From Tautonia marina (GTDB lineage Bacteria > Planctomycetota > Planctomycetia > Isosphaerales > Isosphaeraceae), in the NCBI RefSeq assembly GCF_009177065.1, contig NZ_WEZF01000004.1, positions 248,001 through 312,000 of the forward strand: DNA of 64,000 bases, written 5' to 3'. This document shows positions 3,003 through 56,469 of the stretch, in pieces. A model generated the notes under the pieces. That model worked only from the letters and a program-made list of their open reading frames with translations, was not told where the DNA came from and did not search any database. The position numbers and the translations under genes were made by a program. The number at the start of each line of letters is the position of its first letter. Within the stretch, counting starts at the first letter, position 1.

Positions 3003-3673
3003 CGGTTAATCAAGTAGAGGATTGGATAAAGGAAAACCCAGACGATGTCAACGAAGTGCCAGTAAAGGCCGAGCATCTCGATCTGGGTAGCACCGCCGCC
3101 AGTAAACCATCGTCGTTGCACAAGGACCGCCATGATGGCGATGATCACGATCCCAATAACCATGTGTAACGCATGGATACCCGTGAGCGTGAAGTAGAAC
3201 GACCAGAAGAGAATCTGTCGTCCTGGATAGCGGTCCTGATTGAAATTGATACCCGGAACCAGTTCGAGGTGGTAATCATGGATCCACTCATACGCCTTGA
3301 CTCCGAGAAAGACCGAGCCAAGAACGATTGTGGCAACCAGAAACAGCACTGTGTTCCGATGTTGCCGGAGCTGAGATGCTCGAACAGCCAATGCCATGGC
3401 CAAGCTGGAAACGAGCAATACCGCAGTATTGTACGCCCCAAGGATGGGGTCGAGATGCTCACTCGCGGCCTTCATCGCAGGTCCGTAGAGGGTCTGGACC
3501 ACCGCAAAGGCGCCCAGGACCCCCCCGAAAAACAGAACCTCAGTCGAGAGAAACGCCCACATACCGAGGCTGGAACTCTCGTGCTGCTGTTGCAGATCCT
3601 CGAAGTGGTGGTACAGGTACGTATCGTCCTGACCGTAGGTATTGTCGTGGGCGGTCGCCGATGGGCTAGACAA
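2999..3673 (-). CDS. ctaE: Cytochrome c oxidase subunit III
   Basis: A 224-residue polytopic membrane protein. Family hallmarks include [15 protein letters not shown] near residue 37, [12 protein letters not shown] in the middle and [19 protein letters not shown] at the C-terminus. Subunit III carries no redox centre and supports proton uptake and stability of subunit I. The start codon is TTG at 3673, preceded by AGGAG inside the last codons of subunit I; the genes overlap by eight bases. No ATG occurs before residue 38, so the TTG start is preferred. Confidence 0.93.
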
Positions 3674-29127: not shown

Positions 29128-29528
29128 TGTCGGCTCCTTGGCGGCCGTTACGATTGTTCGTGGGGATCGAGCAACGCGGCTTGATCGCACCAGGAAAAAT
29201 TTCGGGATCGCACTGGTACGACGTGCGGGCGATCTGTTATAGAGATGCCGTGCCATGGCCTTTGCCGGACCTTCAGGATGAGCGTCACGACGAGGCAAAT
29301 TTCCGCTCCCCACCAGGGCACTCACCTCCGAGCGAACCGAGCCATGGACGGCACCCTTGTGACAGACTGATGCGTCACCCTTGAGGATGGAACCCAGCGT
29401 GCTCGCCGCGTTGCGAGCCCGACCGCATCTCACCATTGCCAACCCATCTTCTGCCGAGCGGAAGGGTTGTGAACGGATTCGAGCGCGCGATCCCTCGCGA
29501 CGCTGCATCTTGCACGGAGGAGAAACCG
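29128..29528. other. Leader region of the large TPR gene
   Basis: About 400 bases with no supported gene. A TATAGA near 29240 could be a -10 but has no good -35. The ribosome site GGAGGAG (29516-29522) ends the region. Confidence 0.5.
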
Positions 29529-32500: not shown

Positions 32501-34100
32501 GGTCTATGAGGTGATCCGCCGCACCGATGGCATCGATTCCGCCCTGCAGTTCGTCGAGAACCGTGTCAGCCTCGACACCGACGACGACCGCATCCAGCGC
32601 CTTCTGGTCGATCTCTACACCCGTGAGGGCCGGCTCGACGACGCAGAAACCCTCATCGAAACGATCATCGAGCGCCAGCCGAAGAACCCCCGCCTCGCCG
32701 CCGGCCTGGTGACCATTGTCAGCACCAAGGCCAGTCAGGCCGCTCGGCAGAATCGTCCAGCGGAAGAACAGGAGCTCAACACTCGTGTCTTGAAGCTTCT
32801 TGAGACCTTCCGGACCCAATTCCCCGATGACCTCCGCTTCCCTCAGGCTGAGTGCGAGCTGGCCATTCGTCAGGCCGACTACACCAAGGCCGAGGCGGTG
32901 GCCCGAGAAATCGAGGAACTCAACCCGGAATCACCCATCGGACCCCTGCTCCGGGCTCAGGTCTATCGCGATCAAGGACTCGACGAGCGAGCCATCCAGG
33001 CCTATCGCGATGCTCTTGAGAACAACCCCCTTCGCGACGACATTCGCATGGTCCTTGCTCAGCTTTTGCTCGAACTCGGCCGAACCGATGAAACGCTTGC
33101 CGAGGCGTCTCGCATTCTCGACCGCTCTCCGGGAAGGGCCGACGCAGTGCTTCTTCAGGCCTCTGCGCTTGCCTCGCAAACCGGCACCGCAGACCAGATC
33201 GAGCGGCGGCAAAGCGAGGCCGTTGCGTTGCTCGAACAGGCCATCGAGCAGAATCCGACCTTCACCAAGGCCTATCTGGAGGTCGCCCGCATCAACTACC
33301 TTCGCGGTCGAGTCGATGAGTCAATCGCGATCTTGAAGGCTGCCCGGGAAACGCTTCCCAACGACGAGCAACTCCTCTCGGGTCTGATTCGATATCTCGT
33401 CGAACCTCCTGCCGACGGCTCCGCGTCGGGCGAGGCAAACCTGGCCGAAGCGCTCCGGATTGCCGACGAGATCGGCCTGGAGAAGGCAACTGGCACTCTC
33501 TCGCTCGCGGTGGCCCTCGGTTTCCACCGTGGCGGGCGATCCGACCTGGCCAGGCCCTGGGCCGAACGGGCCGTCTCGCTGATTGACGAACCGCTGGTTC
33601 ATCTGACCTACGGCGACATCCTCCTCTCGTTCGCCGAGTCTCAGCAGGATGCCGACTCGACCCGAAGCCTCTTCGAAGACGCCGTGGCCATGTACGACAA
33701 GGTGCTGTCCCACGATTCGAAGTCAATCGAGGCCGTGAACAATAAGGCGTGGATCTTGCACCGCCATCTTGGCAAGGATCAGGAAGCCCTCGACCTGATC
33801 GAAGGGTTGCTCACCCGCGTCGAGCAGCGCACCCTTCCGGGCGAGTTCTTCGATACGCTCGGCTCAATTCAACAGGCCGTCGGTCGCAACAAGGATGCAG
33901 AACAGTCTTACACCGAGGGCTTGAAGAAGTCTCCTGATCTGGCGGTCCTGAACTTCCATCTCGGTCGCCTGATCGCGGCCGACCCCGAACGTTCGGCACG
34001 AGCCAATCAGTATCTCACCCGAGCCTGGGATGCCCGCGCTCAGCTTTCGAGCGAAGATGTCTCCGAGCTGGAAACCCTGCTCAATCGCGTTGGCCACTGA
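29529..34100 (+). CDS. Giant membrane-anchored tetratricopeptide-repeat protein
   Basis: A 1523-residue protein with one N-terminal transmembrane helix (about residues 7-29) after a short basic start, then TPR-like alpha-helical repeats to the end. Examples are VLTQARSAREAGKFEEAEIYY near residue 40 (given as the first repeat) and QEALDLIEGLL near 1420. It is probably anchored in the inner membrane with a long outward- or inward-facing solenoid that holds other proteins. Length and layout recall PrsT-like TPR proteins of exopolysaccharide/protein-sorting systems, but no PEP-CTERM or sortase-like gene lies here, so that is only a possibility. GGAGGAG six bases before the ATG fixes the start. 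A strong terminator follows. Confidence 0.88.
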   Translation: MSVRWKPLIVLSGLFVTVALGGLVAFVLVSGQSNVEDVLTQARSAREAGKFEEAEIYYLQANQIESRNSEVHAEIADFYGDWIAQADASKRFHYQGLRLRHLLEATKFDKAALEPRQALLTESLKGDNTPEQIHWARQVIPLAPNDPDALYVLAIEALDEAPANIKEADRLLKVLQQVAPSRDRTSWIEARIAQYSKNTTDLKRILKTALEREPDASADEIDQLSRLRLLVVNLETAGDPEQHATALDRILSQNERILSQDGIQGTRIVELQRLARRVRDQLLELDSTSADQRWEPLAEVIDRGFQTALKSDDFVGVWIHQAYAEHLNLRGHRVACLEVIQNALTPEVVKDASLQDEVMRLRETAIKAALSDPSDADRFDKAQPHIEALIAGTRPEYQGLGHLFQGAIDLERSGLTGPRSGSAETDSTRPLADARNHLRDATLKLPEVGLAKALYGIALLMSGETALGRQHLLEAQRMGPLEARYQIWAAWSLLEAGYPEESERIVNRVVELADRDPSISSLSGTIQLLQGEIARSRKSPKDLEVARAAYAGSIVDGDEVPPAVSLRLAELTIALDGPEAGLAQLDDMRRHGGSTPALEALAVSTLVELDRIDDAITTLKAAREAAPDDAQLAVLHAAIALKQDQPNEADALLADFLADHPDDLTVAQTRARILSGVLDRADEARTVLTEIGERTGVTAPFVQLAMIDLAQGDLAAASKTVEIIRNRWPEASAGDLLDAQIALFERDFNAASKHLQAAIEKDPSNKVALFWKAQLDSRGGAPSRAAEDFEKLVRDGTMKELGNGLSLATAAEWSLAAMAMENKDFDKAIARLESIVQGDNAGSMERAARWQIIAARSEKGQWQDARKELIALLNEPESTIDERVQAADFFRRNGESEVAEKLVDQVLDRKPGHAGAVIIKSYLLSEQGKTPEAIDRLRAAIEHEEQPPAVYLMLAAFAGETQTSDNAFATIRTSLEQGLEAHPQSIDLLRSVYEVIRRTDGIDSALQFVENRVSLDTDDDRIQRLLVDLYTREGRLDDAETLIETIIERQPKNPRLAAGLVTIVSTKASQAARQNRPAEEQELNTRVLKLLETFRTQFPDDLRFPQAECELAIRQADYTKAEAVAREIEELNPESPIGPLLRAQVYRDQGLDERAIQAYRDALENNPLRDDIRMVLAQLLLELGRTDETLAEASRILDRSPGRADAVLLQASALASQTGTADQIERRQSEAVALLEQAIEQNPTFTKAYLEVARINYLRGRVDESIAILKAARETLPNDEQLLSGLIRYLVEPPADGSASGEANLAEALRIADEIGLEKATGTLSLAVALGFHRGGRSDLARPWAERAVSLIDEPLVHLTYGDILLSFAESQQDADSTRSLFEDAVAMYDKVLSHDSKSIEAVNNKAWILHRHLGKDQEALDLIEGLLTRVEQRTLPGEFFDTLGSIQQAVGRNKDAEQSYTEGLKKSPDLAVLNFHLGRLIAADPERSARANQYLTRAWDARAQLSSEDVSELETLLNRVGH

Positions 34101-40933: not shown

Positions 40934-43900
40934 ATGGGCAGCTTCAAGGGTGACAAGCGAAAGCCAGGCCGGAATCGTCCTCGCTCCCTCAGTGGGCTCG
41001 CTCGACGCGATATGAGCCCGGAGCGATTGGAAGAGCGGACGCTTCTCTCATCAGGGTTTATCACTCCTCAGCAAGTCACCGCGGCCGCGTTGAACGGGCC
41101 GGTCTTCGAGAACGGGGGAAAACACCTCTCCGAGCTGTACGAGGCGAGTCGGGTTGGCGGCAATGACCTGCAGCAAACCATCGCCGCGAAGTCGCAGTTC
41201 ATCACCTTCCGCAATGGCCTGGTCGGGGTCGACATCTACAGCGATAAGACCGTCGGCTTCGATCGACTCTCGAAGACGCTCACCGATCTGGGCATGCAGA
41301 TCGTTGCGACAGACTCCCGCAATCAGATCGTCGAAGGCTTCGTGCCGCTCAACCAGCTGGGCACCATCGCCCAGATGGCGGGCGTTCGCACCATGACCCC
41401 GATCTTTACCCCGGCGGTTCGTTCGCAAGGCTCCGCCTCGAACCAGGCCAACGAGGTGATGGGGGCCGACGTCGCCCGCTCGCAGTTCAACGTCGACGGC
41501 AGCGGCGTGACCATCGGGGTGATCTCGGATAGCGTCAGCCGCTTCCAGGGAGGTCTGGCCGACTCCATCGCGTCGGGAGACCTGCCGCCCCTGAATCGCA
41601 TCAACGTTCTGCTCGACGAACAAGTCGGAGGCAACAACTCCGACGAAGGCCGGGCGATGATGGAGTTGATCTACGACATCGCTCCAGGAAGTAATTTCGC
41701 ATTCCATACCGGATTCCTCGGTCCCGTCGGCTTTGCCGATGGCGTCCGCAGACTGGCTCGCGAAGCCGGCTCGGAGCTGATCGTCGACGACGTCGGACTT
41801 GCCGGCGAGCCCGTCTTCCAGCCTGGCCTGATCGCCCAGGCGATCACCGATGTCACGACCGCCGACAATGTCACCTACTTCAGCGCCGCCGGAAACGATG
41901 GCGACCAGGGGATCGAAACCAATTTCCGGGGCGTCAACGCCACGGTGAACGGTGTCGGAGCCGGCCGCTTCCTCGACTTCGATCCCGGCCCGGGGGTCTC
42001 CACGACCCTGCAGGTCACCACCAATCAGGCCAATTCTCGAGTGGTCATGTGGTGGGATGACCCCTGGTTCACCGGCGCCGCCGATACGAACCTCGACTTC
42101 TTCCTCCTCGATGCCAACGGCACGGTCGTGGCCTCGGGTGTGAACAACAACATCGGCAGCGCGACCCCTCAGGAATTTGAGGTCATTCCCGCGGCCGGTA
42201 CGTACCAGCTGGCGATCCGAGTCACCGGCGGCCCCGACCCCTCTCGGGTTCGCTTCCAGACCTTCTTCGATAGCCTCACGGTCGACCAGCAATTCGGCAA
42301 CGCCGGAGCGACCACCTACCCGACGACCTTCGGCCACCCCGCGCACACCGATACGATCGGGGTTGGTGCGGTCAACTTCTTTGATGCGCCGCCGTTCTCG
42401 ACGCAGACTCCGACCCCAACGGCCAACTTCACGTCAGTCGGCCCAGTCCTCTACTTCTTCGATGCAGCGAGCAATCGACTTCCTCAATCGCAATTGCTCC
42501 TGAAGCCGGACGTTGCCGGTCCGCAAGGAACGAATACCAGCTTCTTCGGCAGCGACATTCCGCAGGATCCCGACACCAACCCGAACTTCTTCGGCACCTC
42601 GGCCGCTGCTCCGAACGTGACCGGTGTCGCGGCCTTAATGAAGCAGCTCAACCCTTCGTCTCGTCCCGCTGATATTCGCCAGGCCCTGGTCAACACCGCC
42701 TCCCCGGTCAACGGCACTCCAGCCCGTGCCTGGGACAACCGGGGTGGATTTGGTCTGGTCGATGCCGTTGACGCCATGACGGCGATCGACCAGCTCCGAG
42801 TCGTCGCATCGACCCCGGCCAACGTGGCCGTGCTTCCGTCGGCTCCCACGTTCGTCGAACTCGAATTCTCGAAAGCGATCGATCCCTCGAGCTTGCAGGC
42901 GTCCGACCTGACTTTCCCCGTTGCTCCGAACGGGGTGACCATCAGCGTGGGAACGCCGGTCGTGATCAACCCGATCACCGTTCGGTTCCCGATCACGCTG
43001 AACGTCGCGTCCCCCGATGTCCAGGTCAACGGAACCTACGTCTTCCGCCTGGCCGACAACGCCATCAACGCGCAGGACGGCAGCGAGCTGATCGGCCTCG
43101 ACCGGGCCTTCTCGATCAACGACGTGACCGCCCCTCGCGTCACCAACACGATCCTTCAGGGTCGAATCCTCGTCGTTCAGTTCAGCGAGGCCATGCGAGC
43201 CTCGACCATCAACAAGGGCACCGTCCAGCTCATCCGGACCGGCGGAAGCGGCCAGTTCGGTAATCCCTCGAACGTCGTCGTCACCGACGATCCCCGGGCG
43301 CTCTTCTTCTACGACGCTCAGTCCAACCGGGCGATTTACGACCTCCGGGCCCTGCCGCAGACGGTGATGCCCTCCGACATCTATGCCCTGGTCGTCAGCG
43401 ACCAGGCACGCGACGCGACCGGCCTTCGCCTCGATGGCAACTTCACCGGACAGTTCCCGTCCGGCGATGGGGTTGCGGGCGGCTCTTTCGTCCAGAACCT
43501 CGGCGGTCGGCTGGTGACGGCTCCCCAGATTGTGGAGTTCGGCCTCAGTGCGTCGTCCGACACGGGTCTTCCGAGTGATCGCAACACCAACCAGATCCGA
43601 CCGACCTTCACCGGCTTCGTCGCGGCTCAGTTCCCGGCCACCAACGCCGGTCTTCAGGTCGCCGTTCAGTTCATCCAGGATCGTCCCGGCGGCTTCGACC
43701 TCGATGTCGGACCCAACGGCGAAGGCTTTGTCGGCACCCCCGACCTGATCGTCACCACCGACTCCGCCGGCTTCTTCTCGTTCCAGGCCCCGGAAGACCT
43801 TCGGGAAGGCTTCCACCAGGTCCGAATTGTGGTCGTGGGCGAGGTGGAATGGCCACCGGCCGAAGGGAAGGCCAGCCGCGCCGAGCTGTCCTTCCGGGTC

Positions 43901-46900
43901 GATACCAACGGGCCGCTGGTCACGGCCAGCTCCATCCCGATGGACTCCCGGATCTCGAACCTTCGAAACATCACGCTCAACTTCTCGGATCCGATCAATC
44001 CGACCGACCCGAGCGATCCGCTCGCGGTCCCGGTTCAGCTCGACATCCCGGCACTCGATCCCCGAACCGCCGAGAACCTCGGGAACTATTCGCTCATCAA
44101 CCTCGGTCCCGACCGTCGCTGGGGAACCTCGGACGACATCGACCTGTCCGATTTCATCCAGAGTGCGACGTTCACTTCGACCACCAATCGAACCGTCTCG
44201 ACCGATCCCTACACCGCTCAGGTGGATCTGACCTTCTCTGACGGGCTTCCTGAAGGTCGGTATGCACTCGTTGCACGGACTCAGGGCTTCGGCTTCTCCG
44301 GGATTCGAGACGCCTCGGGCAACCCGCTCGATAACAACACGGCCCAGGCCGGCAATCAGAGCTTCTTCACCTACTTCGAGCTGCAACCGGAAGCCACCTT
44401 CATCAGCGGCTTCAAGGCGTTCAGCCCATCGGCCATCACCCCCGGCACGACGGCCGAGAGTGGCCCCAGGGCCTTCTACGAGGTTCCGGTCCCCGGCTTC
44501 ACGCCTCGAGCCGAAGCGCCGCCGACGATGTTCCACATCGATTTCTCGAACAGCCTGGAGGTTCGAGACTACACCAACGCGGTCCAACTGATCCGCTCGG
44601 CTGATTCCGCCGTGGCCGACGCCGACGGCGACTTCGGGCTGAATGGGTCCACCGGCTTCACCACGGTTTCCGGCCTCACGGTCGAGCTGACCAACTCGAT
44701 TTCTGGAGCCACTCCCGGCCAGCCGGGCTTCCAAAACCGCCTGGTCGTGCGGCTGCCGCAGGGTCAAACCCTCGAGCCCGATTACTACCGCATTGTCTTG
44801 CCGAACACCGGCAGCGAAGAAATCAAGGACGTCTTCGGCAATCATGCCGACCTCGAATTCCTCGGGAATCAGAAGCCCACGGGCACTGACTTCGAGGTCT
44901 TCATGCCCGATGGAACCTACCGAGACGGCCTCACCGGCGACGGTGTCGACGGTGGCACGTTCGTCACCGGGTTCGCCGTGGTTCCCGGTCAGCGTCTCGG
45001 CTCCGATGGTCGGGTCCGCGGGAACATCATCTACACCCGCCCCGACTACCAGGACGATCCGTTCCTCTCGACCGACGATCCCGACGGCAGCATGCAGCGT
45101 CCCTTCGCAACCCTGCTGCCCGAGGCCGAGGCGAATAGCCTCAACGGGGGCGATCTGAACTCGGCCGCCAACTTCGGCACCGGCTTCAACCAGTTGCTCG
45201 ACCGGAACGCCAACCGCCGGTTCGACCGCTCCGCCTTCTTCGAGGCCGAGCAGAACCGCGCAGAGGGACCGGTCGTGATCGTGGCCCTGCCCGGCATTCC
45301 TCGGCCTGGCACCGGTGACTTCCAGACGACTCAGGAGACGTTCGTCATTGCTCCTCCGGCCGGGATCGACCCGACCATTCCGGAAGGCAATGCCAGCGGA
45401 TCAGTGCCGGAGATGACCACTCTGGTCTTCAATCCCGGCTCGGCCCTGAAGATGTTCAACGCCTCCCTCTTCGTTCAGAATCAGGGGTCGGCGCTCCAGC
45501 TCCGAGGTGGATCAAATCCGGGCGAAACCGTCCTCATCACCTCGTTCCTCGACGACACGGTCGGTGGCGACACCAACCGCGACCGAACCAACACCACCCC
45601 TCGCGGTGGCGACTGGGGCGGCATCGTCTTCCGGAACTACGACGACGTTTCCAACGGTCGAGCCGCGCTCCCCGCTCAGTTCCCGGTCGATGGCAAGCTT
45701 GGCCTGTCGGGCGCCTCGGACGTCATGTCCTTGATCAACCACGCGAACATTCGGTTCGGTGGTGGTGCGGTCCCGCAGACGATCGGCACGCGGTACGACA
45801 CGATCACCCTCTTCAACAGTCGGCCGACGATCACCAACACGGTCGTTTCCGACAGTCAGGGAGCCGGTGGTTCCCAGGCCGCCATCTCGGCCGACCTCGA
45901 CTCGCTCCGGGAAGACGCGATCGCTCGCGGCCCTCTGATCCGCCGCGTCGAGTTCGTCGAGAACTCGATCAACGGTATCCTGCTTCGGCCTGCCGTGGGA
46001 ACGCTCCAGGCCCAGGAAACCGACGCGCAGTTCTTCCCGAACAATCCGTCATCGCAAGGTGGGGTCCGGAACTTCGTCATCGACGACCCGATTCCCTACG
46101 TCTTGAACTCTCAGGTCATCATCGGCCAGCGGCTGAACACAATCACCGGAGGCATTCAGGGCGGGATCGGCAGTCGACTCTATGTCCAGCCGGGCATGCT
46201 GATCAAATCCAGCCCTGGCTCGTCGATCGCCGTTGCCAGCACCAACGCCAGCCTGAACATCGGCGACCGAGCCTACATCTCCCAGTTCGACGCCAACCCA
46301 AGCTTCGGTCCCAACAGCCCGAACTTCCGGCCGAGTGACCTGGGTGACGCCAAGCCCCTGTTCACCACGCTGTTCGACGACGCAGCCGAAACCTTCTTCT
46401 TCGACCCGACCACCGGTGTTCGTCGCACGATCGTGCCGGCCAATGCCACCGACGGCAACTCCAACAATCCGCAGCCCTCGCCGGGGAACATCCCCTCGTC
46501 GCTCCGCTGGGGCAACATCTCTGTCACCCCCGGTGCCCGAGCGGTCATCGACGAGGCTGAGTTCCGCTTCGGTGGCGGCCGGATTATCGTCCCCGAAGGC
46601 GGCCTGGGGAACCGTCAGGTGCTCAACCTGTCGGGCTTCGGTGCGGGGGCCTTCGTCTCGGTCACGAACAACGACTTCTACGACAACTTCGACGTCCCGA
46701 TCCTCGTCTCGCCGAACCAGTTGCTCGCCGCCGATCCGACCCGGCCGCTGCTGTCGGGCAACCCGTTCTTCCGCGGCAACGTGATGGAGCGAAACTCCAT
46801 CAACGGCCTGGGGATCAGCACCGGTGGGTTCGTGATCCCTCCCGTGAATTTCCAGGGAGATTTCTACGCCGAAACCGTTCCGTTCAACGGCAACTCCCCG

Positions 46901-49900
46901 AACCTGACCGTCGACTCGGTCTGGGACGACACCGACATCGTCCACGTTCTTCGCGGAACCGTGATCCTCGCTGGCTGGCACAACAGCGGCTTTGGCTCCA
47001 AGCCGGTCCCGAGTTCCACCACCTTCGAGGATGAACTCGATCCCGCCGTCTCGTTGACCCTCCAGAGCGCCTTGCCCGATACGCTGCTAAGCAACGGCGA
47101 GCGGATCGCCCGCCCCGGCGAGGAACTGGTTGTCAAACTGTTCAACGACACGCCGATCGGCAACCCCGGCCCCGGCGACGCGATCGACCCTGCTCTGAGC
47201 ATGCAGACGCCCAACGTCACGGGCAATCTCTTCGGCGCCGGCTTCAACGTCGGCTACGATGACGGCGCCGACCCCGACCAGCCCAGCCCGACCGTTGATC
47301 CCGGCTATGGCAGCCAGATCCGCATCGTCGGCATCGGTTCCAACGAATCGACCGGTCAGCAGCGGGTCCCCGTCGTCATCACCTCGTTGCGAGACAACAC
47401 CGCCGGACCGGTCGTCCGCGGGGTTGACCAGTCCGATACCTGGTTTGCCGACTTCCGCGGCCGTAACATCCCGCTCGACACGCCGGCCCCCGGCGACGGT
47501 GGGATGATCGGCATCGGTGGCGGCAGCCTGTTCGACTACAACCTCTTCGACCCCCGCAACGGCAGTCTCATCGACAACGCCGACATCCGATACCTCCACC
47601 GGATCGAGTTCCAGGCCGGCGGGATCGTCGACGCCTTCGACCTCGACGACAGCGACGCGATCGACCTCGCCGACCAACTCCGCTTCCAGAAGCTCGGCCT
47701 CGATCCGGCCACGCAGTACAACGCTCAGCATGGCTGGACGGTCTCGAACTCCAACCTGTCGAGCTTCCGCGATGCCGGTATCCTCGCCGATCAGGGCTTC
47801 GACCTCATCGCCCGCGAGCTCACCGATATCGGAGGAAATCTCACTGCTGGTTTCCCGGCCCGCATCAGCGGCCAGAGGGGCCAGCCGGTCAACCTGTTCC
47901 TGGTCAACAACACCATCGCCAACATGCCGGTGGGCGTCCGCGTCAACGCGACCACTGGCAACAACGACACCTCGCAGTCTCCGACCCAGATCGTGATGCT
48001 GCACAACACCTTCTACAACAACGGTGTTGGTTTCCGTGCTGAAGCTCCGGCCTATGCCGGTGGCCCTCCTCCCAACAGCCTGTCGCATGTCTACTTCTTC
48101 GGGATGAACAACATCTTCGATGGAGGGACGATCGGCAGTCAGGCCGGAGCCGCGGCCGTTCGAACCAATGGTATGGTCGGTGGCAGCGAACTGCTGTTCA
48201 ACGTCTTCCACAACTACACCACGAACGTCGAGATCAATAACCCCGCGATCGCCGGCTTCGGCTTCCTGGGGAACAACAACCCGATCTTCGGCGATCCGCG
48301 GTTCCTCGATCCTCAGAACGGGAACTTCTTCCTTCAGCCCGGTTCGGTCGCCATCGACGCCGCGATCAGCGAAATCGGTCCGCTGGCCATTGGCAACATG
48401 CTCCGACCGGTTTCCAACCAGGTGCTCGACGCCTCGGGCGGAATCCGGAACACTACCGGACGCACCAACCCGTTCGGGAGCCTGGGCAGTCCCTCCTCGA
48501 CCCTCGATGTCATCACCTTGCCCGGCACTCCCGGTCGAGGATTCGTCGACCAGTTCATTCCGGTCTTGCAGGGGACTCCCGGCGGTGTCATCGGACCGGC
48601 GTCCAGTGCCGCCACCTTCGCCTTCCGCCCACTCGGTGGCGAACGCGACCTGGAAGGCTTCCTCCGGATCGACGATCCGAACACGCCGAACCTCGGCTTC
48701 GGCAGCCGGCCATACTTCGACATCGGTGCCCGAGAGTTCCGCATCTTCAACCCGCCGATCGTCACCAACCAGGGGGCGACGGATGTCAATGGAGACGGGG
48801 TCGGTGACGGCGTCACGGCCACGATCATCGATCCGACCACCGGCAACCCGCAAGACATCAGCATCTACATCCCTGGTGGTGTTGCCGGTGTCAACCAGTC
48901 GCCGCAGACCCTCAGCTTCCAGATCAACAAGGATCTGGACCCGCAGACGGTCAACAGCCAGACGGTCCTGCTTCAGGCCTCCGGTGGCGACGGCATCTTT
49001 GGCAACGCCAACAGCCCGGCCGACCGCACCATCCCGCTCTCGGGCCTGGTGAGCTTCGACCCGACCACCAACCGCCTGGTCGTCGAACTGGCCTCGGCCA
49101 ACCTCCTGCTGTCCAACGATCTCTACCAAATCACGCTCGTCGGCACCGGCGGCAATGTGATCCGAGATCGACAGGGCAATGCCCTCGACGGCGAAAACCT
49201 CGCCACCAACGGGCTGCCCGGCCCCTTGCCCTCCGGTGACGGCTTCCCGGGCGGCAACTTCATCCTGCCGTTCACGATCGACACGAGGGCGCCGGAAGTC
49301 GTTCCGGGCACCTTCCGCCTCGATCCGACGAACGACCCGACCTTCCCGGTCGGCATCACCAACGTCGACATGCCGACCTTCGTTGGCCGGATCACCGACC
49401 TGTTCCCGCCGGTCAACCCGCTGGTCAACCAGACGGTGGTGCTCGATGTCGACAGCAACGGCGACGGTGTCTTCGACCTGATCGGCATCGGCCAGGCCAT
49501 CACCGACGCCAACGGCAACTTCGTCATCACGGCCAACCAGTCGTTGCCCGATAGCCCGTTCAACGTCGGCCCCGACGGAATCTTCGGCACCGCCGACGAT
49601 ACCGGCTACAGCCGAGCCCGCGTCCGGGTCACCGATGTTTCCGGCAACGAGTCGGACCCGAACGACCCGAACGCCACCATCCGGTTCGTGCTCGACACCC
49701 GCTCGCCCGAGCTTCTTTCGACCACCCCGGCGGATGGCTCTCAGGTCAGCAGCGGAGGCTTCCAGGTCTCCTTCACCGCCGACGAGAACCTCTTGCTCTC
49801 CAGCCTCACGGCTCCGGGTTCCATCCAGGTCGTGGGCGCCGGGCAGGACGGTGTCTTCGGCACCGGAGACGACCGCACCGCCAATGTCGTCCTCTCGTCG

Positions 49901-51541
49901 CTGAACATCGCGTACCTCGCCACGGCACCGAGCGGCCCGGTTCGGGTCAGCTTCAACGTGACCGGCGCGGATGTCAACGACATCTACCGGGTCACCGTCA
50001 ACCCCTCGGTCACCGACCGGGCCGGGAACTCCATCGAGGACGGCGGCTTCAGCATCGACATCGTCGTCTTCACTCCCGGTCAGGAACGGTTGCTGTTCGT
50101 TGGACCGTCGGGCTCGTTCAACCCGACCGGCTCCCGCAACAATCCGTTCCCGACCATCGCCGCCGGCCTGGCCGCGGCGACCGTGGGCGACACCGTGGCG
50201 GTCTTGCCCGGCACCTACAACGAGGCGGTCACGCTCAAGTCGCTCGTCCGTCTGGTGTCGGCCGACCTCTCCAGCACCGACAGCAACGTCGTCCCCGGTC
50301 GGGCTCAGGCCACGATCATCCGAGCTCCGTTGAATCCGAACGGGCCGGAAGTCACGGTGACCGGCTCCGACCTGATCGGCCTCGGTGGCGACGTCGATAC
50401 CGAGCTTCGTGGCTTCGCCATCGTCGCTCCGCTGTCGAACGTCAGCACCGGGCAGCTTCAGGAAGACTCGACCGGCCTCTTGCTGCTCAACTCCGGCGGC
50501 CTGTTCCACCGGAACATCATCATCAACGGTGGTCGCGGCATCGACATCACGCCTCGATCCTCGGGCGACAACGCCCGGATCGAAAGCAACGTCATCGTCG
50601 GCAACCGCACCGGCCTGGTCATCATGGACGGCGACAACACCGACCCGATCGATCCGGTTCAGGTGACCAACAATACCTTCGCCTTGAACAACGGCGGCAT
50701 GGTGGTCTACGACGCCGCCCTGAACACCGGCTCGATCGTGCTGACCGATGTTGCCAACAACATCTTCTGGCAGAACAATGACCGCACGCCGGGTGCCACC
50801 GACTCCCACCTTGCCGTCTACCCGCCGGTCGCCCAGGTCCGCGGCAATATGTTCGGCTCGAACCCGAACAACCCGCTCCTCGGCTTCCCGGTGGGTGCGA
50901 TCAGCACCACGCCGAACCCGACGGCCGCCTTCAACTACATCGGTGAGCCGGCCTTCATCGCGGCCCGAGACCCGAGGCCCGGATTCGACGGCCCGACCGT
51001 CACCCTGCTCGACGGCAACTTCGGCCTGACCCCGTCCTCGGCCGCCATCGACGCGGCCCTCGGACAGGTCGCCCCCACCCTCGACTTCCTCGGTCGAGCC
51101 CGGGTCGATGTGCCCAATCGCGGCTTCGTCAACCTCGGGCCGGCGGATGTGGGAGCCTATGAGTTCCAGCCGTCCAGCCAGGTGATCATCCCCGGCTTCC
51201 CGGGCATTCCGGGATCGCCGATCTCCCCGACCCCGACCCCGACCCCGCCCGGCACGATCCTCTTCGGAACTCCGGGAGCCGCCTCGCCGAGCGAACCGGG
51301 ATCGCCGGTCAACGTCGGACCTAACAACCCCGCCGTCACGTTCCAGCCCGGAACCGGCGTCGGTCGGGCCGCTCAGACTTCCGGCACCTCGCAAGCGACC
51401 GCCGGGCAGGCCCGCCGCGATCGAGACGCCCTGCGAGGTCTCCTCACCGGCAAGCAGACCAAGGTCGCGGAAACCGCTCCGCAAGGCAAGCGAGCCTGGC
51501 ACGACCTGATCTCGTTGACCCGCTTCCGCCGCGGCAACTGA
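40934..51541 (+). CDS. Giant secreted multidomain protein: subtilase-like domain, Ig-like modules and beta-helix regions
   Basis: A 3535-residue protein. A basic N-terminus leads to MSPERLEERTLLS, a LEPR-XLL-type export motif seen on large planctomycete surface proteins; no classical signal peptide is visible. Residues about 170-620 form an S8/subtilisin-like domain with Asp199 (VISDSVSRF), oxyanion Asn321 (SAAGNDG) and Ser556 (GTSAAAPN). At the usual His position the sequence is SDEGRAMMELIYDIAPG, so Glu238 replaces His. Then come Ig/SbsA-like modules; three end with similar GDG-V-GG-F blocks near residues 842, 1334 and 2766. Parallel beta-helix stretches occur at about 1560-2480 and 3050-3400, the latter opening with a DUF1565-like PFPTIAAGLAAATVGDTV. 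A proline-rich TPTPTPP linker and basic tail end it. Likely a cell-surface protein. Confidence 0.93.
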   Translation: MGSFKGDKRKPGRNRPRSLSGLARRDMSPERLEERTLLSSGFITPQQVTAAALNGPVFENGGKHLSELYEASRVGGNDLQQTIAAKSQFITFRNGLVGVDIYSDKTVGFDRLSKTLTDLGMQIVATDSRNQIVEGFVPLNQLGTIAQMAGVRTMTPIFTPAVRSQGSASNQANEVMGADVARSQFNVDGSGVTIGVISDSVSRFQGGLADSIASGDLPPLNRINVLLDEQVGGNNSDEGRAMMELIYDIAPGSNFAFHTGFLGPVGFADGVRRLAREAGSELIVDDVGLAGEPVFQPGLIAQAITDVTTADNVTYFSAAGNDGDQGIETNFRGVNATVNGVGAGRFLDFDPGPGVSTTLQVTTNQANSRVVMWWDDPWFTGAADTNLDFFLLDANGTVVASGVNNNIGSATPQEFEVIPAAGTYQLAIRVTGGPDPSRVRFQTFFDSLTVDQQFGNAGATTYPTTFGHPAHTDTIGVGAVNFFDAPPFSTQTPTPTANFTSVGPVLYFFDAASNRLPQSQLLLKPDVAGPQGTNTSFFGSDIPQDPDTNPNFFGTSAAAPNVTGVAALMKQLNPSSRPADIRQALVNTASPVNGTPARAWDNRGGFGLVDAVDAMTAIDQLRVVASTPANVAVLPSAPTFVELEFSKAIDPSSLQASDLTFPVAPNGVTISVGTPVVINPITVRFPITLNVASPDVQVNGTYVFRLADNAINAQDGSELIGLDRAFSINDVTAPRVTNTILQGRILVVQFSEAMRASTINKGTVQLIRTGGSGQFGNPSNVVVTDDPRALFFYDAQSNRAIYDLRALPQTVMPSDIYALVVSDQARDATGLRLDGNFTGQFPSGDGVAGGSFVQNLGGRLVTAPQIVEFGLSASSDTGLPSDRNTNQIRPTFTGFVAAQFPATNAGLQVAVQFIQDRPGGFDLDVGPNGEGFVGTPDLIVTTDSAGFFSFQAPEDLREGFHQVRIVVVGEVEWPPAEGKASRAELSFRVDTNGPLVTASSIPMDSRISNLRNITLNFSDPINPTDPSDPLAVPVQLDIPALDPRTAENLGNYSLINLGPDRRWGTSDDIDLSDFIQSATFTSTTNRTVSTDPYTAQVDLTFSDGLPEGRYALVARTQGFGFSGIRDASGNPLDNNTAQAGNQSFFTYFELQPEATFISGFKAFSPSAITPGTTAESGPRAFYEVPVPGFTPRAEAPPTMFHIDFSNSLEVRDYTNAVQLIRSADSAVADADGDFGLNGSTGFTTVSGLTVELTNSISGATPGQPGFQNRLVVRLPQGQTLEPDYYRIVLPNTGSEEIKDVFGNHADLEFLGNQKPTGTDFEVFMPDGTYRDGLTGDGVDGGTFVTGFAVVPGQRLGSDGRVRGNIIYTRPDYQDDPFLSTDDPDGSMQRPFATLLPEAEANSLNGGDLNSAANFGTGFNQLLDRNANRRFDRSAFFEAEQNRAEGPVVIVALPGIPRPGTGDFQTTQETFVIAPPAGIDPTIPEGNASGSVPEMTTLVFNPGSALKMFNASLFVQNQGSALQLRGGSNPGETVLITSFLDDTVGGDTNRDRTNTTPRGGDWGGIVFRNYDDVSNGRAALPAQFPVDGKLGLSGASDVMSLINHANIRFGGGAVPQTIGTRYDTITLFNSRPTITNTVVSDSQGAGGSQAAISADLDSLREDAIARGPLIRRVEFVENSINGILLRPAVGTLQAQETDAQFFPNNPSSQGGVRNFVIDDPIPYVLNSQVIIGQRLNTITGGIQGGIGSRLYVQPGMLIKSSPGSSIAVASTNASLNIGDRAYISQFDANPSFGPNSPNFRPSDLGDAKPLFTTLFDDAAETFFFDPTTGVRRTIVPANATDGNSNNPQPSPGNIPSSLRWGNISVTPGARAVIDEAEFRFGGGRIIVPEGGLGNRQVLNLSGFGAGAFVSVTNNDFYDNFDVPILVSPNQLLAADPTRPLLSGNPFFRGNVMERNSINGLGISTGGFVIPPVNFQGDFYAETVPFNGNSPNLTVDSVWDDTDIVHVLRGTVILAGWHNSGFGSKPVPSSTTFEDELDPAVSLTLQSALPDTLLSNGERIARPGEELVVKLFNDTPIGNPGPGDAIDPALSMQTPNVTGNLFGAGFNVGYDDGADPDQPSPTVDPGYGSQIRIVGIGSNESTGQQRVPVVITSLRDNTAGPVVRGVDQSDTWFADFRGRNIPLDTPAPGDGGMIGIGGGSLFDYNLFDPRNGSLIDNADIRYLHRIEFQAGGIVDAFDLDDSDAIDLADQLRFQKLGLDPATQYNAQHGWTVSNSNLSSFRDAGILADQGFDLIARELTDIGGNLTAGFPARISGQRGQPVNLFLVNNTIANMPVGVRVNATTGNNDTSQSPTQIVMLHNTFYNNGVGFRAEAPAYAGGPPPNSLSHVYFFGMNNIFDGGTIGSQAGAAAVRTNGMVGGSELLFNVFHNYTTNVEINNPAIAGFGFLGNNNPIFGDPRFLDPQNGNFFLQPGSVAIDAAISEIGPLAIGNMLRPVSNQVLDASGGIRNTTGRTNPFGSLGSPSSTLDVITLPGTPGRGFVDQFIPVLQGTPGGVIGPASSAATFAFRPLGGERDLEGFLRIDDPNTPNLGFGSRPYFDIGAREFRIFNPPIVTNQGATDVNGDGVGDGVTATIIDPTTGNPQDISIYIPGGVAGVNQSPQTLSFQINKDLDPQTVNSQTVLLQASGGDGIFGNANSPADRTIPLSGLVSFDPTTNRLVVELASANLLLSNDLYQITLVGTGGNVIRDRQGNALDGENLATNGLPGPLPSGDGFPGGNFILPFTIDTRAPEVVPGTFRLDPTNDPTFPVGITNVDMPTFVGRITDLFPPVNPLVNQTVVLDVDSNGDGVFDLIGIGQAITDANGNFVITANQSLPDSPFNVGPDGIFGTADDTGYSRARVRVTDVSGNESDPNDPNATIRFVLDTRSPELLSTTPADGSQVSSGGFQVSFTADENLLLSSLTAPGSIQVVGAGQDGVFGTGDDRTANVVLSSLNIAYLATAPSGPVRVSFNVTGADVNDIYRVTVNPSVTDRAGNSIEDGGFSIDIVVFTPGQERLLFVGPSGSFNPTGSRNNPFPTIAAGLAAATVGDTVAVLPGTYNEAVTLKSLVRLVSADLSSTDSNVVPGRAQATIIRAPLNPNGPEVTVTGSDLIGLGGDVDTELRGFAIVAPLSNVSTGQLQEDSTGLLLLNSGGLFHRNIIINGGRGIDITPRSSGDNARIESNVIVGNRTGLVIMDGDNTDPIDPVQVTNNTFALNNGGMVVYDAALNTGSIVLTDVANNIFWQNNDRTPGATDSHLAVYPPVAQVRGNMFGSNPNNPLLGFPVGAISTTPNPTAAFNYIGEPAFIAARDPRPGFDGPTVTLLDGNFGLTPSSAAIDAALGQVAPTLDFLGRARVDVPNRGFVNLGPADVGAYEFQPSSQVIIPGFPGIPGSPISPTPTPTPPGTILFGTPGAASPSEPGSPVNVGPNNPAVTFQPGTGVGRAAQTSGTSQATAGQARRDRDALRGLLTGKQTKVAETAPQGKRAWHDLISLTRFRRGN

Positions 51542-52137: not shown

Positions 52138-52528
52138 GTTGCGCTCCTTTAAGTTCTTGAGGAATTGAGCGAAGCAAATCAACCGATCGTTCGGCCGGAT
52201 CGGTCTGGGAGTCAACACCAATTGTAAAGAGTTTGCAAGTCCACTGCACGACGGCCGGGGCGGTTGTCGTCGATTCCCCGCGTCGCTTCCCTCTCGCAAG
52301 AATCCCCGCATCCCGCTCGTACAGTCGTCCAACTCGCTCGATCGAATTGACGACTCGCCGTTCTCCGGAAACACAATCGTGCGATCCGGTTCGCGTGCGT
52401 CATCCGCTTGACGCGCCCCGCCGATCGGCCCTATGTTGAAGAATTGACGGAGATTCGGTCGCGTTCCCGCCGGATCGGTCCTCCTCGTGCCCCGGTCCTC
52501 CCGCCTTCGCCTCCGAGGAGCATGCCCC
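52138..52528. other. Divergent region ferredoxin / DUF1549 gene
   Basis: About 390 bases with no supported gene. Start-proximal ribosome sites for both genes are present. No convincing promoter pair or palindrome. Confidence 0.5.
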
Positions 52529-55015
52529 GTGCGACTCCCTTCCTCCTTCCGATTCGGATCGACCGTCCTGGCACTGGGATGCTTCGTCTGGTCGCTTCCG
52601 AACCTTCAGGCAGCCCCCTCCTCCCCCCAATCCCTTTCGATTGAGCCCGCCTCCATCCACTTGAGCGACCCGAGCGACCGCCAGCAGGTCGTCGTGACGG
52701 CGCACTTCGCCGATGGTTCAATCCGCGACGTCACGTCAGAAGCCACCTTCTCCGTCGATTCCGACGGTCTCGCCCACGTCTCACCGTCTGGCGTCCTCAC
52801 GCCTCGCACCGGCGGCGGCTCGACCTCCTTGATCGTTCGCTTCGGAGCCGCCACCGCCGAAGCGAGTATCACGGTTGCCTCCACCGAATCCCCTCGGCCC
52901 ATCAGCTACCGGCAAGACGTGGCCGCGGTCTTTTCGAAAGCCGGATGCAACATGGGAGCCTGCCACGGCAATCTCAACGGCAAAGGGGGCTTCAAGCTCT
53001 CGCTCCGCGGCGATGACCCCGGCCTGGATCTGCTCACGATCACCCGGGGCGTCTTCGCCCGTCGGATCGACACCGTGGCCCCTGAGTCCAGCCTGATCCT
53101 CCTGAAGGGCCTCGGCCAGCTCCCGCACGAAGGAGGCCGTCGCTTCGGTCCGGAAGATCTCGAGGCGCACATCCTCCGCTCCTGGATCGCCGGAGGCGCC
53201 CGGGACGACCTTGGCTCCGTCCCCGAAGTCGCCTCCCTCTCCATCTTCCCGAGCGATCGGATCAACGCCGCTCCCAGCCTGACTCAGCAGCTCGTCGTCA
53301 CGGCCACGTTCACCGACGGCTCCACCCGAGACGTCACGCGTCTGGCCGCCTTCGACCTGGACGATCCGACTGCCGTCGCCGTCTCTCCCTCCGGCCTCGT
53401 CCGCCGCAATGGTTCGGGAGAATCAGTCGTTTCGGCCCGATTCCTCGGCAATCACGCTGTCTCCCGCCTGGCCTTCCTCCCCGATCGTGCCTCCTTCGCC
53501 TGGGACGGACCCGCGCCGAAAACCCCCTTCGACGAGGCCGTGTTCGCCAAGCTCGAAGCCCTCAAGATCCACGCCTCCCCCCCGACCCCCGATCACGTCT
53601 TCCTCCGTCGTGCCTTTCTCGACGCCATCGGCGTCTTGCCCACTCCCGACGAGGCCCGCGCCTTCCTCGATTCCGACGATCCCGACAAACGGGCTCACCT
53701 CGTCGATGCCCTCCTCGATCGCCCCGAGTTCGCCGACTTCTGGGCCTTGAAGTGGGCCGACCTGCTCCGCAACGAGGAAAAGACGATGGGTCCGAAAGGC
53801 GTCTGGGCTTTCCAGCGCTGGCTCCGCGACCAGATCGCCGCTGATGTCCCCCTGACCAACTTCGCCGAGGCCCTGCTCACCGGCTCCGGTTCCTCCTGGG
53901 GCAACCCCCCGGCCAGCTTCTACCGCACGAACCGCGACCCCGAAACCTGCGCCGAGAGCTTCGGCCAGATCTTCCTCGGCGTCCGCCTGCAATGCGCCCG
54001 ATGCCACAACCACCCGTTCGACGTCTGGACGCAGGACGACTACTACGGCATCGCTGCCGCCTTCGCCAACATCGAGCGCAAGGAAGTCAACAACACGCGG
54101 CGCGACCGGCTCAACTCGCACGAGATCAACGGCGACGTCCTGGTCCACCTCAAAGGCACTCCTCGAATGACGCATCCGGTCACCCGCGAGCGGGTCGCGC
54201 CGACGGCTCCCGGTGGCGTCTTGCTGGAGTTTGCCGACGACAACGACGCCCGGGCCGCCCTCGCCGACTGGCTCACCCGGCACGACGAACAGTTCGCCCG
54301 GAACATGGCCAACCGCGTCTGGTTCCACCTGTTCGGCCGGGGGGTCGTCGATCCGGTCGATGACTTCCGATCTTCCAATCCCCCGAGCAACCCCGCCCTC
54401 CTCGACGCCCTGACCGATGCCTTTATCACCGGTGGTTACCGGGTCAAACCCCTCGTCCGCCAGATCATGACCTCCGCCGTCTACGGGCTCGACTCCACCC
54501 CCCGACCGACCAACCTCGACGACGAAGCCAACTTCGCCCGGGCCCGAATCAAACTCCTCCCCGCCGAGGTCCTGCTCGACGCCATCGCCTCGGCCCTCGA
54601 CCGCCCGGCCGACCTCGACGGCGTTCCCCCCGGCACCCGCGCCGTCTCCCTTGCCGGCGCCAACACCGGGCCCGAATTCCTCGACGCCTTCGGCAAACCC
54701 GACCGCCTGCTCACCTGCGAATGCGAGCGATCCGAGGAAACCACCCTCTCCCAGGCTTTCCAGCTCATCAACGGCTCGTCCGTTCGCGCCATCCTGGAAG
54801 ATCCCAACAACCGCCTCGGTCAACTCCTCGATTCCCAACTCAGCAACGAGGCCAAGCTCGACGAGCTTTACGTCGCCTCCCTCTGCCGTCCGCCGACCGA
54901 CGAGGAGGTTTCCGGAGCCCTCGACTACCTCTCCTCCGCCACCAACCCCCGAGCCGCCTGGGAAGACATCGCCTGGGCCCTGGTGAATAGCAAGGAGTTC
55001 CTCCTCCGACGCTAG
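52529..55015 (+). CDS. DUF1549/DUF1553 planctomycete protein with BIG2-like repeats and heme-type motifs
   Basis: An 828-residue exported protein. A signal peptide (about residues 5-30, ending LQAAP) is followed by a BIG2-like Ig domain (FADGSIRDVTSEATF), a region with CNMGACHGN, a second BIG2-like domain (FTDGSTRDVTRLAAF), then DUF1549 (RRAFLDAIGVLPTPDEA, WALKWADLLRNEEK) with CARCHNHPFDVWTQDDYYG, and DUF1553 at the end (FARNMANRVWFHLFGRG). CARCH is a CXXCH heme-c site; CNMGACH has wider spacing. The GTG at 52529 is chosen for GAGGAG upstream and the signal peptide right behind it. It forms the usual pair with the DUF1501 gene; function is unknown. Confidence 0.92.
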   Translation: MRLPSSFRFGSTVLALGCFVWSLPNLQAAPSSPQSLSIEPASIHLSDPSDRQQVVVTAHFADGSIRDVTSEATFSVDSDGLAHVSPSGVLTPRTGGGSTSLIVRFGAATAEASITVASTESPRPISYRQDVAAVFSKAGCNMGACHGNLNGKGGFKLSLRGDDPGLDLLTITRGVFARRIDTVAPESSLILLKGLGQLPHEGGRRFGPEDLEAHILRSWIAGGARDDLGSVPEVASLSIFPSDRINAAPSLTQQLVVTATFTDGSTRDVTRLAAFDLDDPTAVAVSPSGLVRRNGSGESVVSARFLGNHAVSRLAFLPDRASFAWDGPAPKTPFDEAVFAKLEALKIHASPPTPDHVFLRRAFLDAIGVLPTPDEARAFLDSDDPDKRAHLVDALLDRPEFADFWALKWADLLRNEEKTMGPKGVWAFQRWLRDQIAADVPLTNFAEALLTGSGSSWGNPPASFYRTNRDPETCAESFGQIFLGVRLQCARCHNHPFDVWTQDDYYGIAAAFANIERKEVNNTRRDRLNSHEINGDVLVHLKGTPRMTHPVTRERVAPTAPGGVLLEFADDNDARAALADWLTRHDEQFARNMANRVWFHLFGRGVVDPVDDFRSSNPPSNPALLDALTDAFITGGYRVKPLVRQIMTSAVYGLDSTPRPTNLDDEANFARARIKLLPAEVLLDAIASALDRPADLDGVPPGTRAVSLAGANTGPEFLDAFGKPDRLLTCECERSEETTLSQAFQLINGSSVRAILEDPNNRLGQLLDSQLSNEAKLDELYVASLCRPPTDEEVSGALDYLSSATNPRAAWEDIAWALVNSKEFLLRR

Positions 55016-55080
55016 GAACTCAACCGAGAAGACTCTTGGCCTGCGCTCAACGACAGTCGCTCAACCGGGAGAACGCCCCG

Positions 55081-56469
55081 ATGAACCGCGGATGCCCCGA
55101 TTTCCAGGCCACTGCTCTCCTCTCGCGCCGAAGCCTCCTGCGCGTCGGGAGCCTCGGCCTCGCCGGCCTCTCCCTCCCAAACGTTCTGCGGGCGGCCTCC
55201 GACCCGAGCAAGTCGTATCGCCCGGCGACCGCGAAGAATGTCATCTTCCTCCACCAGTTCGGCGGGCCGAGCCATATCGACACGTTCGACATGAAGCCCG
55301 ACGCACCCGAGGGGATTCGCGGCGAGTTCTCGCCCATCGCCTCGACCGTGCCGGGGGTCAACGTCACCGAGCATCTCCCCCGCTTCGCCCAGGTGATGGA
55401 CAAGGTCGCGCAGATTCGATCGGTCCACCACCGAATGAAGAACCACAACTCGGCCAGCTACTACAGCCTGACCGGCCACGCCCCCCCGCTCGACGATATC
55501 CGCCTCCGCGACACGCTCGAACTGTTCCCCTCCTACGGCTCCGTCGTCGCCAAGCTTCGCCCGAGCGACGACCCAGCCGTCCCCTCGTACGTCTCCTATC
55601 CGCACGTGATGCGCGACGGCAGCGTGACCCCCGGCCAGCACGCCAGCTTCCTCGGCAAGCCGTACGATCCGTTCTTCATCGGCCAGGACCCCAACGAGCC
55701 CAGCTTCCGCCTTCCTGAGCTGGACTTGCCCGAGTCCACCCCCCTGTCCCGTCTTGACGACCGCCGCGGCCTGCTCGAACTGATCGACCGCCAGGCCCAG
55801 CTCCTCGAATACGACGCCACCGCCCGAGGGATCGACGACTTCTACGGCCGAGCCCTCTCGATGCTCGCCTCCCCCCGGGTCAAGGGGGCGTTTGATCTCA
55901 GCCAGGAACCCGACGACCTCCGCGACCGCTACGGCCGGACCACCTACGGCCAGTCCTGCCTGCTCGCCCGCCGCCTCGTCGAGACTGGTGTCCGGTTCGT
56001 GACCGTCTATTTCTCCCGATCCATCGGTGGCAACGGCTCAAACGGCTGGGACACGCATCAAGACAACTTCAACGACCTGAAGAACCGGCTCCTGCCGATC
56101 ACCGATCAAACCGTTCCCACCTTGATCCAGGATCTCGATGCCCGCGGCCTGCTCGACGAGACCCTCATCGTCTGGATGGGCGAATTCGGCCGCGGCCCGA
56201 AGATCGGCGACCGCGACGGCAAAGGGCGCAACCACTGGCCCAGTTGCTACACCGTGCTGTTTGCCGGTGGCGGCACCACCGGAGGCGCCGTCTACGGCTC
56301 CAGCGACCGCATCGGCGGCTATCCTGCCATCGACCCCGTCCCTCTGGAGAGCATCGCCGCCACCATGTATCATGCCCTCGGCATCGACCCCGAAACCGAG
56401 GTCTCCGACCGCCTCAACCGCCCTCTTGCCATCGCCTCGCAGCGTCCGATCACCGAGATCTTCTCATAA
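55081..56469 (+). CDS. DUF1501 exported protein
   Basis: A 462-residue protein with a twin-arginine-like start (LSRRSLLRVGSLGLAGLSLP). The body matches DUF1501, a sulfatase/alkaline-phosphatase-like fold: FLHQFGGPSHIDTFDMKP, HHRMKNHNSASYYSLTG, GWDTHQDNFNDLKNRLLP and WMGEFGRGPKIGDRDGKGRNHW are visible (each a separate segment). It begins 65 bases after the DUF1549 gene and is very likely co-transcribed and functionally paired. The true substrate is unknown. GGGAGAA precedes the ATG. Confidence 0.93.
   Translation: MNRGCPDFQATALLSRRSLLRVGSLGLAGLSLPNVLRAASDPSKSYRPATAKNVIFLHQFGGPSHIDTFDMKPDAPEGIRGEFSPIASTVPGVNVTEHLPRFAQVMDKVAQIRSVHHRMKNHNSASYYSLTGHAPPLDDIRLRDTLELFPSYGSVVAKLRPSDDPAVPSYVSYPHVMRDGSVTPGQHASFLGKPYDPFFIGQDPNEPSFRLPELDLPESTPLSRLDDRRGLLELIDRQAQLLEYDATARGIDDFYGRALSMLASPRVKGAFDLSQEPDDLRDRYGRTTYGQSCLLARRLVETGVRFVTVYFSRSIGGNGSNGWDTHQDNFNDLKNRLLPITDQTVPTLIQDLDARGLLDETLIVWMGEFGRGPKIGDRDGKGRNHWPSCYTVLFAGGGTTGGAVYGSSDRIGGYPAIDPVPLESIAATMYHALGIDPETEVSDRLNRPLAIASQRPITEIFS

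Follow-up and report, generated by a model that had tools for sequence, protein, structure and literature searches.

A subtilisin-fold domain with Glu at the catalytic His position in a giant protein of Tautonia marina, a predicted serine protease with a carboxylate general base

Catalytic triads are usually taken as hard to replace. The window analysed here, a stretch of 64,000 nucleotides from Tautonia marina (contig NZ_WEZF01000004.1, positions 248,001 to 312,000 of the forward strand), carries a gene whose subtilase domain has Glu where the catalytic His is expected, and this raises the question of which residues would form its active site. The initial annotation described a 3535-residue surface protein with Asp199 and Ser556 in normal subtilase motifs and Glu238 at the His position, and proposed either an S8 fold with sedolisin-like chemistry or an inactive scaffold. 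ORF listing and translation confirmed a single open reading frame of 3535 codons (3535 aa), in which Asp199, Glu238 (237-DEGRAM-242) and Ser556 (554-GTSAAAP-560) carry exactly these numbers. The results point, with moderate confidence, to a secreted subtilisin-fold serine protease with a carboxylate general base, in which Ser556 and Glu238 would be assisted by Asp286 (or Asp285) as the acid. The gene is organised as follows.

40934..51541, + strand: whole open reading frame, giant protein with an N-terminal protease module (ORF calling)
41027..41050, + strand: residues 32-39, LEERTLLS, similar to the N-terminal export motif of planctomycetes
49694..50035, + strand: Big_5 Ig-like domain, residues 2921-3034 (Pfam, E 9.8e-10)
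50120..50779, + strand: DUF1565 region of beta-helix type, residues 3063-3282 (Pfam, E 5e-6; overlaps a weak NosD match)
51020..51169, + strand: choice-of-anchor Q domain, residues 3363-3412 (NCBIfam, E 1.1e-6)

The giant protein is presumably located at the cell surface. Residues 32-39 of the window protein have no Pfam match, and PF07595 (Planc_extracel) was matched by one of 79 relatives. PF00082 covers only residues 465-607 of the window protein and was matched by 78 of the 79 relatives. No NCBIfam model came near its cut-off in the protease part, and neither Pfam nor NCBIfam offered a model specific to the Glu-type family, the best NCBIfam matches being mycosin and other subtilases far under their cut-offs. 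The host genome has one copy of the Glu-type gene. Compared with one congener, the protease domain is under purifying selection, with a dN/dS of 0.067 for residues 164-622, 0.099 for the whole gene and 0.07 to 0.17 for the six segments that follow residues 164-622. Three relatives (L032, L033 and L034) align collinearly with the 3535-aa protein from residue 1 (or 24) to 3411-3454, with 38-44% identity overall. The alignment includes the long tail behind the protease (42800-51541), which is about 88-93% identical per segment in the congener L176.

AlphaFold2, supplied with 79 sequences, predicted a subtilisin fold plus propeptide (mean pLDDT 91.3, pTM 0.92) with the following parts.

41051..41422, + strand: propeptide region, residues 40-163 (DSSP of the model; beta-alpha-beta-beta-alpha-beta core predicted at 96-156)
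41414..41437, + strand: linker, residues 161-168 (low-confidence stretch 164-168 in the model)
41438..42799, + strand: subtilisin-fold catalytic domain, residues 169-622, split by an insert (PF00082; VIA)
41921..42301, + strand: jelly-roll insert after the oxyanion Asn, residues 330-456 (AlphaFold2 pLDDT 92.9)

In VIA comparisons, the catalytic part matched subtilisins with Z 31.8-33.2 and rmsd 2.3-2.8 over 246-256 residues. With the propeptide included, pro-Tk-subtilisin 2zwo gave Z 32.3 and rmsd 3.4 over 322 residues, and the alignments to pro-Tk-subtilisin and pro-subtilisin E begin at model residue 56. The low confidence at residues 164-168 is as expected for a processed linker between propeptide and domain. 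Residues 161-168 are the likely maturation site, and Gly166 is Gly in 90 of 96 sequences.

When compared directly by hhalign, the Glu family and canonical S8 sequences aligned over the C-terminal half only, and the PDB comparison likewise aligned mostly this half. We therefore relied on a bridge through a sister family of His-type domains (12 rows, L113-L120, L123-L125 and L133, found in genomes of the window's phylum with L026 as query). Against these sisters, hhalign aligned 386 columns at E 8e-55, comprising the core and the jelly-roll insert. It paired Ser198 with the sisters' Asp, Asp199 with a variable residue, Glu238 with the sisters' His, and Asp285-Asp286 with Phe-Ser of the first sister. 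The sisters in turn align with subtilisin BPN' through Asp32, His64, Asn123-Met124-Ser125, Asn155 and Ser221; their jelly roll lies, as in the Glu-type domains, between BPN' matches that run up to 149 and resume from 155 (numbering of the shortened chain). The register obtained for the N-terminal half is consistent with a weak, gap-free match to Tk-SP. The active-site columns were assigned accordingly.

41525..41527, + strand: Ser198, subtilisin Asp32 position (register via the sisters; 152 of 152)
41528..41530, + strand: Asp199, taken by the initial annotation for the catalytic Asp (not Asp in 13 of 152 sequences; 8 changes on the tree with 119 Glu rows)
41645..41647, + strand: Glu238, aligned with subtilisin His64 and opening a predicted helix (proposed as general base; 152 of 152)
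41786..41791, + strand: Asp285-Asp286, subtilisin 124-125 (proposed acid source, Asp286 favoured; each 152 of 152)
41894..41896, + strand: Asn321, oxyanion-hole Asn, equal to subtilisin Asn155 (register via the sisters; 152 of 152)
42335..42337, + strand: His468, best conserved His column, variable (80 of 96 rows have His, 12 have Gln)
42599..42601, + strand: Ser556, nucleophile in GTSAAAP, equal to subtilisin Ser221 (152 of 152)

The 152 sequences, the window among them, are distinct cores (residues 192-560) left from 158 rows after six pairs of identical cores had been merged. Outside this count stand L056 and L088, with a broken frame and the Ser beyond the break, and L179, which comprises the C-terminal part only and has the Ser. 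Since the search patterns of the genome_contigs scan contain the GTS motif, that scan favours Ser556 by construction and does not favour Glu238. Whole-genome searches without a motif seed reached 78 of the 152 cores, and all 78 have the same six residues (Ser198, Glu238, Asp285, Asp286, Asn321 and Ser556). Among the first 97 rows, the invariant columns were G189, S198, E238, G239, P251, D285, D286, G298, N321 and F552; E238, D285 and D286 were the sole invariant charged residues. Of the 96 rows that cover position 556, all but L088, with its frame break, have Ser there. The assignment of Glu to the His position stood, and at the sequence level Glu238 is conserved more than chance would produce. 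The Asp-His-Ser triad of S8 is absent, its positions being occupied by Ser198, Glu238 and Ser556 in all 152 sequences.

The same register speaks against Asp199 as the catalytic acid. Of the two motifs called normal, only that of Ser556 is so; Asp199 lies in V-I-S-D-S, not V-I-D-x-G. A triad of Ser556, Glu238 and Asp199, with Asp199 standing in for Asp32, is favoured by the place of residue 199 directly beside the Asp32 position and by the presence of Asp there in 139 of the 152 sequences. However, residue 199 falls at subtilisin residue 33 and is replaced by Thr (7), Asn (4), Ser (1) or Ala (1) in the other 13, members of the window's own family included, with 8 changes on the tree of 119 Glu rows. 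We rejected Asp199 as the acid on the register and these replacements and regard such a triad as decidedly unlikely, although Asp199 may contribute where it is present. Several genomes of the window's family (L171, L173, L187, L202, L203, L209 and L215) have Thr or Ala here and are natural tests of Asp199.

Nor does a His from elsewhere in the domain appear to complete a classical triad. His468 is the best candidate, being His in 80 of 96 rows, but the column also holds Gln (12), Lys (2) and Asn (2) and lies opposite Pro in most His-type sisters. At 471, Ala predominates (78 of 96 rows), and 258 is His in just 34 of 98 (an earlier alignment that included three misframed rows, L046, L057 and L110). 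As no invariant His column was found among the 96 rows, this candidate was dropped and the corresponding reading is highly improbable; judged from the alignment, no normal His would complete the triad.

The acid is more plausibly supplied by the Asp pair. In the predicted structure, residue 198 closes the first strand, residue 238 opens a helix, and another strand terminates at Asp285, immediately before Asp286. The Ser125 side chain of savinase contacts the Ser221 carbonyl (Table 3 of PMC11593635), and in PCSK9, where residues 123-125 are Leu-Leu-Pro, Pro288 CG lies 3.0 A from OD1 of the catalytic Asp186 (Table 4 of the same paper). Residue 125 thus points towards the acid site, where an Asp, combined with Ser for Asp32, can take the place of the acid. 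The residue at the subtilisin-123 position is Val in 83 of 97 Glu-type rows. In the proposed mechanism, Ser556 would attack the peptide bond and Glu238 would accept its proton; Asp286, or less likely Asp285, would hold and tune Glu238 from the space occupied by Asp32 in subtilisins, and Asn321 would stabilise the oxyanion. The domain would remove its own propeptide near residues 161-168. As a Glu-Asp carboxyl pair must share a proton, the pH optimum is expected to be lower than that of subtilisins. Alternatively, the invariant Asp pair might be structural or metal-binding. The initial annotation had mentioned neither this pair nor Asn321, the propeptide or the inserted jelly roll.

The domain shares the fold, the Ser in GTSxxxP, the oxyanion Asn and a Tk-subtilisin-type propeptide with the S8 subtilisins of clan SB. 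It differs from them in Ser for Asp32, Glu for His64, Asp-Asp at 124-125 and the jelly roll inserted after the oxyanion Asn. With the S53 sedolisins (serine-carboxyl peptidases) it shares the Glu at the His64 position. According to section 2.4 and Table 1 of PMC11593635, the acid of sedolisins lies four residues past this Glu, within one helix, and their oxyanion hole contains an Asp. In contrast, position 242 is Met in the window (Met in 96 of 97 rows, Leu in one), and Asn321 occupies the oxyanion hole in all 152 sequences. The propeptide domain Pro-kuma_activ (PF09286) was not among the four Pfam families matched at E 0.01 by the 79 relatives, each supplied with up to about 140 residues ahead of the domain, and was found in none of 149 genomes of the phylum, the Sulfolobus acidocaldarius control being positive. 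These three features led us to reject membership in the sedolisins. In structure searches kumamolisin-As ranked 39th in Foldseek and was absent among the best 50 rows listed by VIA. Of the proposed S8 fold with sedolisin-like chemistry, the S8-type fold and a Ser-Glu-Asp-type site are thus retained, whereas the sedolisin layout and Asp199 as the acid are not.

A closer precedent might exist. Siezen, Renckens and Boekhorst (2007) reportedly described, by homology modelling, a sedolisin-like subset with Glu in which the conserved Asp is carried by a beta-strand, at a topologically similar place, and not by the Glu helix. The window domain matches this description, Asp285 ending a predicted strand and Asp286 following it, both in 152 of 152 sequences. 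That work probably described this subset already, in which case the window protein is a further member. To our knowledge, no enzyme of this strand-borne-Asp Glu kind has been assayed. If the subset is the same, the additions made here are the dismissal of the Asp beside the Asp32 position as the acid, the Asp pair, the sister family of His type, the insert and propeptide, and a much wider sampling; if it differs, the window protein would be a variant of a known protease kind instead of a further member. Possible catalogue entries for the domain are presumably cd05562, Peptidases_S53_like, Glr3161 and IPR034075, and we found no literature under these names. The titles and abstracts listed on Ser-Glu-Asp subtilases and clan SB evolution contained no description of the Glu-type family. 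Two papers mention families with reference to Siezen et al. 2007, D-H-S and ED-S in PMC9549277 and E-H-S in PMC3937732. A 2024 structural survey recognises only two triad types for the subtilisin fold (PMC11593635). Two annotated plasmid records label such proteins 'S8 family serine peptidase' (H3 being a partial, weak match), and this label implies a triad that Glu-type proteins do not have.

In its architecture the domain resembles the clostridial Csp proteins, for which PMC6636752 describes a prodomain, a subtilase domain and an inserted jelly roll. The triad of the Csp proteins differs, being Asp-His-Ser (as in CspB) or degenerate. Csp structures took Foldseek ranks 1-6 (CspA, CspC-CspA and CspB; TM 0.45-0.58) and were absent among the best 50 rows that VIA listed for the whole model. 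The window insert is nearer the C-terminal domain of Tk-SP (3afg, the best row, with Z 9.0 and an rmsd of 2.1 over 90 residues) than CspA (9pr9, Z 6.7) or CspB (4i0w, Z 6.0), whose scores lie under the Z of 8 at which chance arrangements become unlikely in VIA; SubHal (7.6) and KP-43 (7.1) lie between. The jelly-roll insertion is called unique to Csp in PMC6636752 and PMC12880746; the Glu-type and His-type families together seem to be a second case among subtilases.

The Csp proteins are also the model for an inactive domain, since CspA and CspC are described as pseudoproteases in PMC6636752 and PMC12880746. The absence of both the classical Asp and the classical His, and the six top Foldseek ranks, would suit a pseudoprotease kept for binding or structure. 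Yet CspC has G485, T170 and D105 at its triad positions (PMC6636752), whereas the Glu-type site has the nucleophile, the oxyanion Asn, the Glu and the Asp pair intact in all 152 sequences. Moreover, 94 of 97 rows have an open frame of at least 107 residues ahead of the domain, as a propeptide would require (of the others, L057 and L091 start at a contig edge and L106 has 23 residues), and the dN/dS is 0.067. We thus consider a pseudoprotease unlikely, and less likely than an active enzyme.

The position at the head of a giant surface-type chain, with active residues retained, would also suit a single-turnover domain for self-cleavage, or for bond formation by acyl transfer, that is no general protease. 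Elsewhere in bacteria, the Glu-type domain often lies in a protein of 600-1200 aa. At least ten relatives with a frame left uncut by the end of the locus carry about 25 residues or fewer beyond the domain, which suits a protease acting in trans and makes this alternative improbable. Because all 152 sequences examined keep the residue set, the domain probably represents a functional kind of serine protease that has received little study; the predicted activity is inferred from this invariance, the propeptide, the short stand-alone relatives and the purifying selection seen against one congener.

The DEGRAM-type domains had been thought to recur in planctomycetes. They do, and extend far beyond: the best 80 of 445 relatives in the genome_contigs scan come from 12 named phyla (79 of the 80 loci have a phylum), namely Pseudomonadota (22), Bacteroidota (22), Planctomycetota (16), Cyanobacteriota (9), Thermodesulfobacteriota (2), Actinomycetota (2) and six phyla with one each. 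Glu-type domains were found in 16 of 392 genomes of the window's phylum at E <= 1.6e-25 (L002-L017). In the window's family, 34 of 45 genomes reach E <= 1e-20, and many of these matches lie in open frames of 3500-3900 aa. L032 (Singulisphaera) and L175, which comes from a genome of this family, have identical cores. The viral_contigs collection yielded no relative in a first scan and one distant relative, L112, in a second. This Glu-type sequence, on a contig of 38201 bases, has Asn at 199 and 'SEGTAMM' in place of 'DEGRAM'.

The phylogeny suggests a single origin of the Glu form. With trait columns removed and canonical S8 sequences as outgroup, 39 Glu rows formed one clade (SH-aLRT 99), and the Glu rows were again one clade on a tree of 119 Glu and 12 His rows. 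On the 39-row tree the His rows lie around the Glu clade, with nesting branches of 82, 84 and 94 from a quick search and no bootstrap; on the 119-row tree the His rows serve as outgroup, so that nesting is seen only in the former. The sisters share the core and the jelly-roll insert with the Glu-type domains and differ in Asp at 198 and His at 238 (12 of 12) and in mostly Ser at 286 (Ser 10, Ala 1, Pro 1). Canonical S8 rows had Asp-His-Ser in 15 of 15 of one set and 6 of 7 of another, where the seventh row, L131, has Asn in the Asp column because its Asp is shifted one column on. No mixed Glu/His state occurred among the rows examined, for which only best matches had been fetched. Thirteen loci, L018-L025 and L027-L031, entered no count, and three of them (not L025) had no clear His motif in a scan too narrow to judge. 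The sequences thus place the Glu form as one clade beside canonical Asp-His-Ser relatives, as one switch would produce. The whole set of catalytic positions differs between the sister clades, the nucleophile and the oxyanion Asn being common to both. Given this contrast without mixed rows, a joint change of general base and acid is testable with few expressed domains.

There is about an even chance that a coordinated exchange of Asp32 for Ser, His64 for Glu and 124-125 for Asp-Asp has left a working enzyme with a third clan SB active site beside S8 and S53. In full, such a site would combine Ser-Glu, a strand-borne Asp and an Asn oxyanion hole in at least 12 bacterial phyla, and the canonical sister family would fix the starting point of the exchange.

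Elsewhere in the window, two ORFs 3' of the giant gene (52487-56469) match PSCyt2/PSD1 (DUF1549/DUF1553) and DUF1501, and a 1554-aa ORF at 29436-34100 contains many tetratricopeptide repeats.
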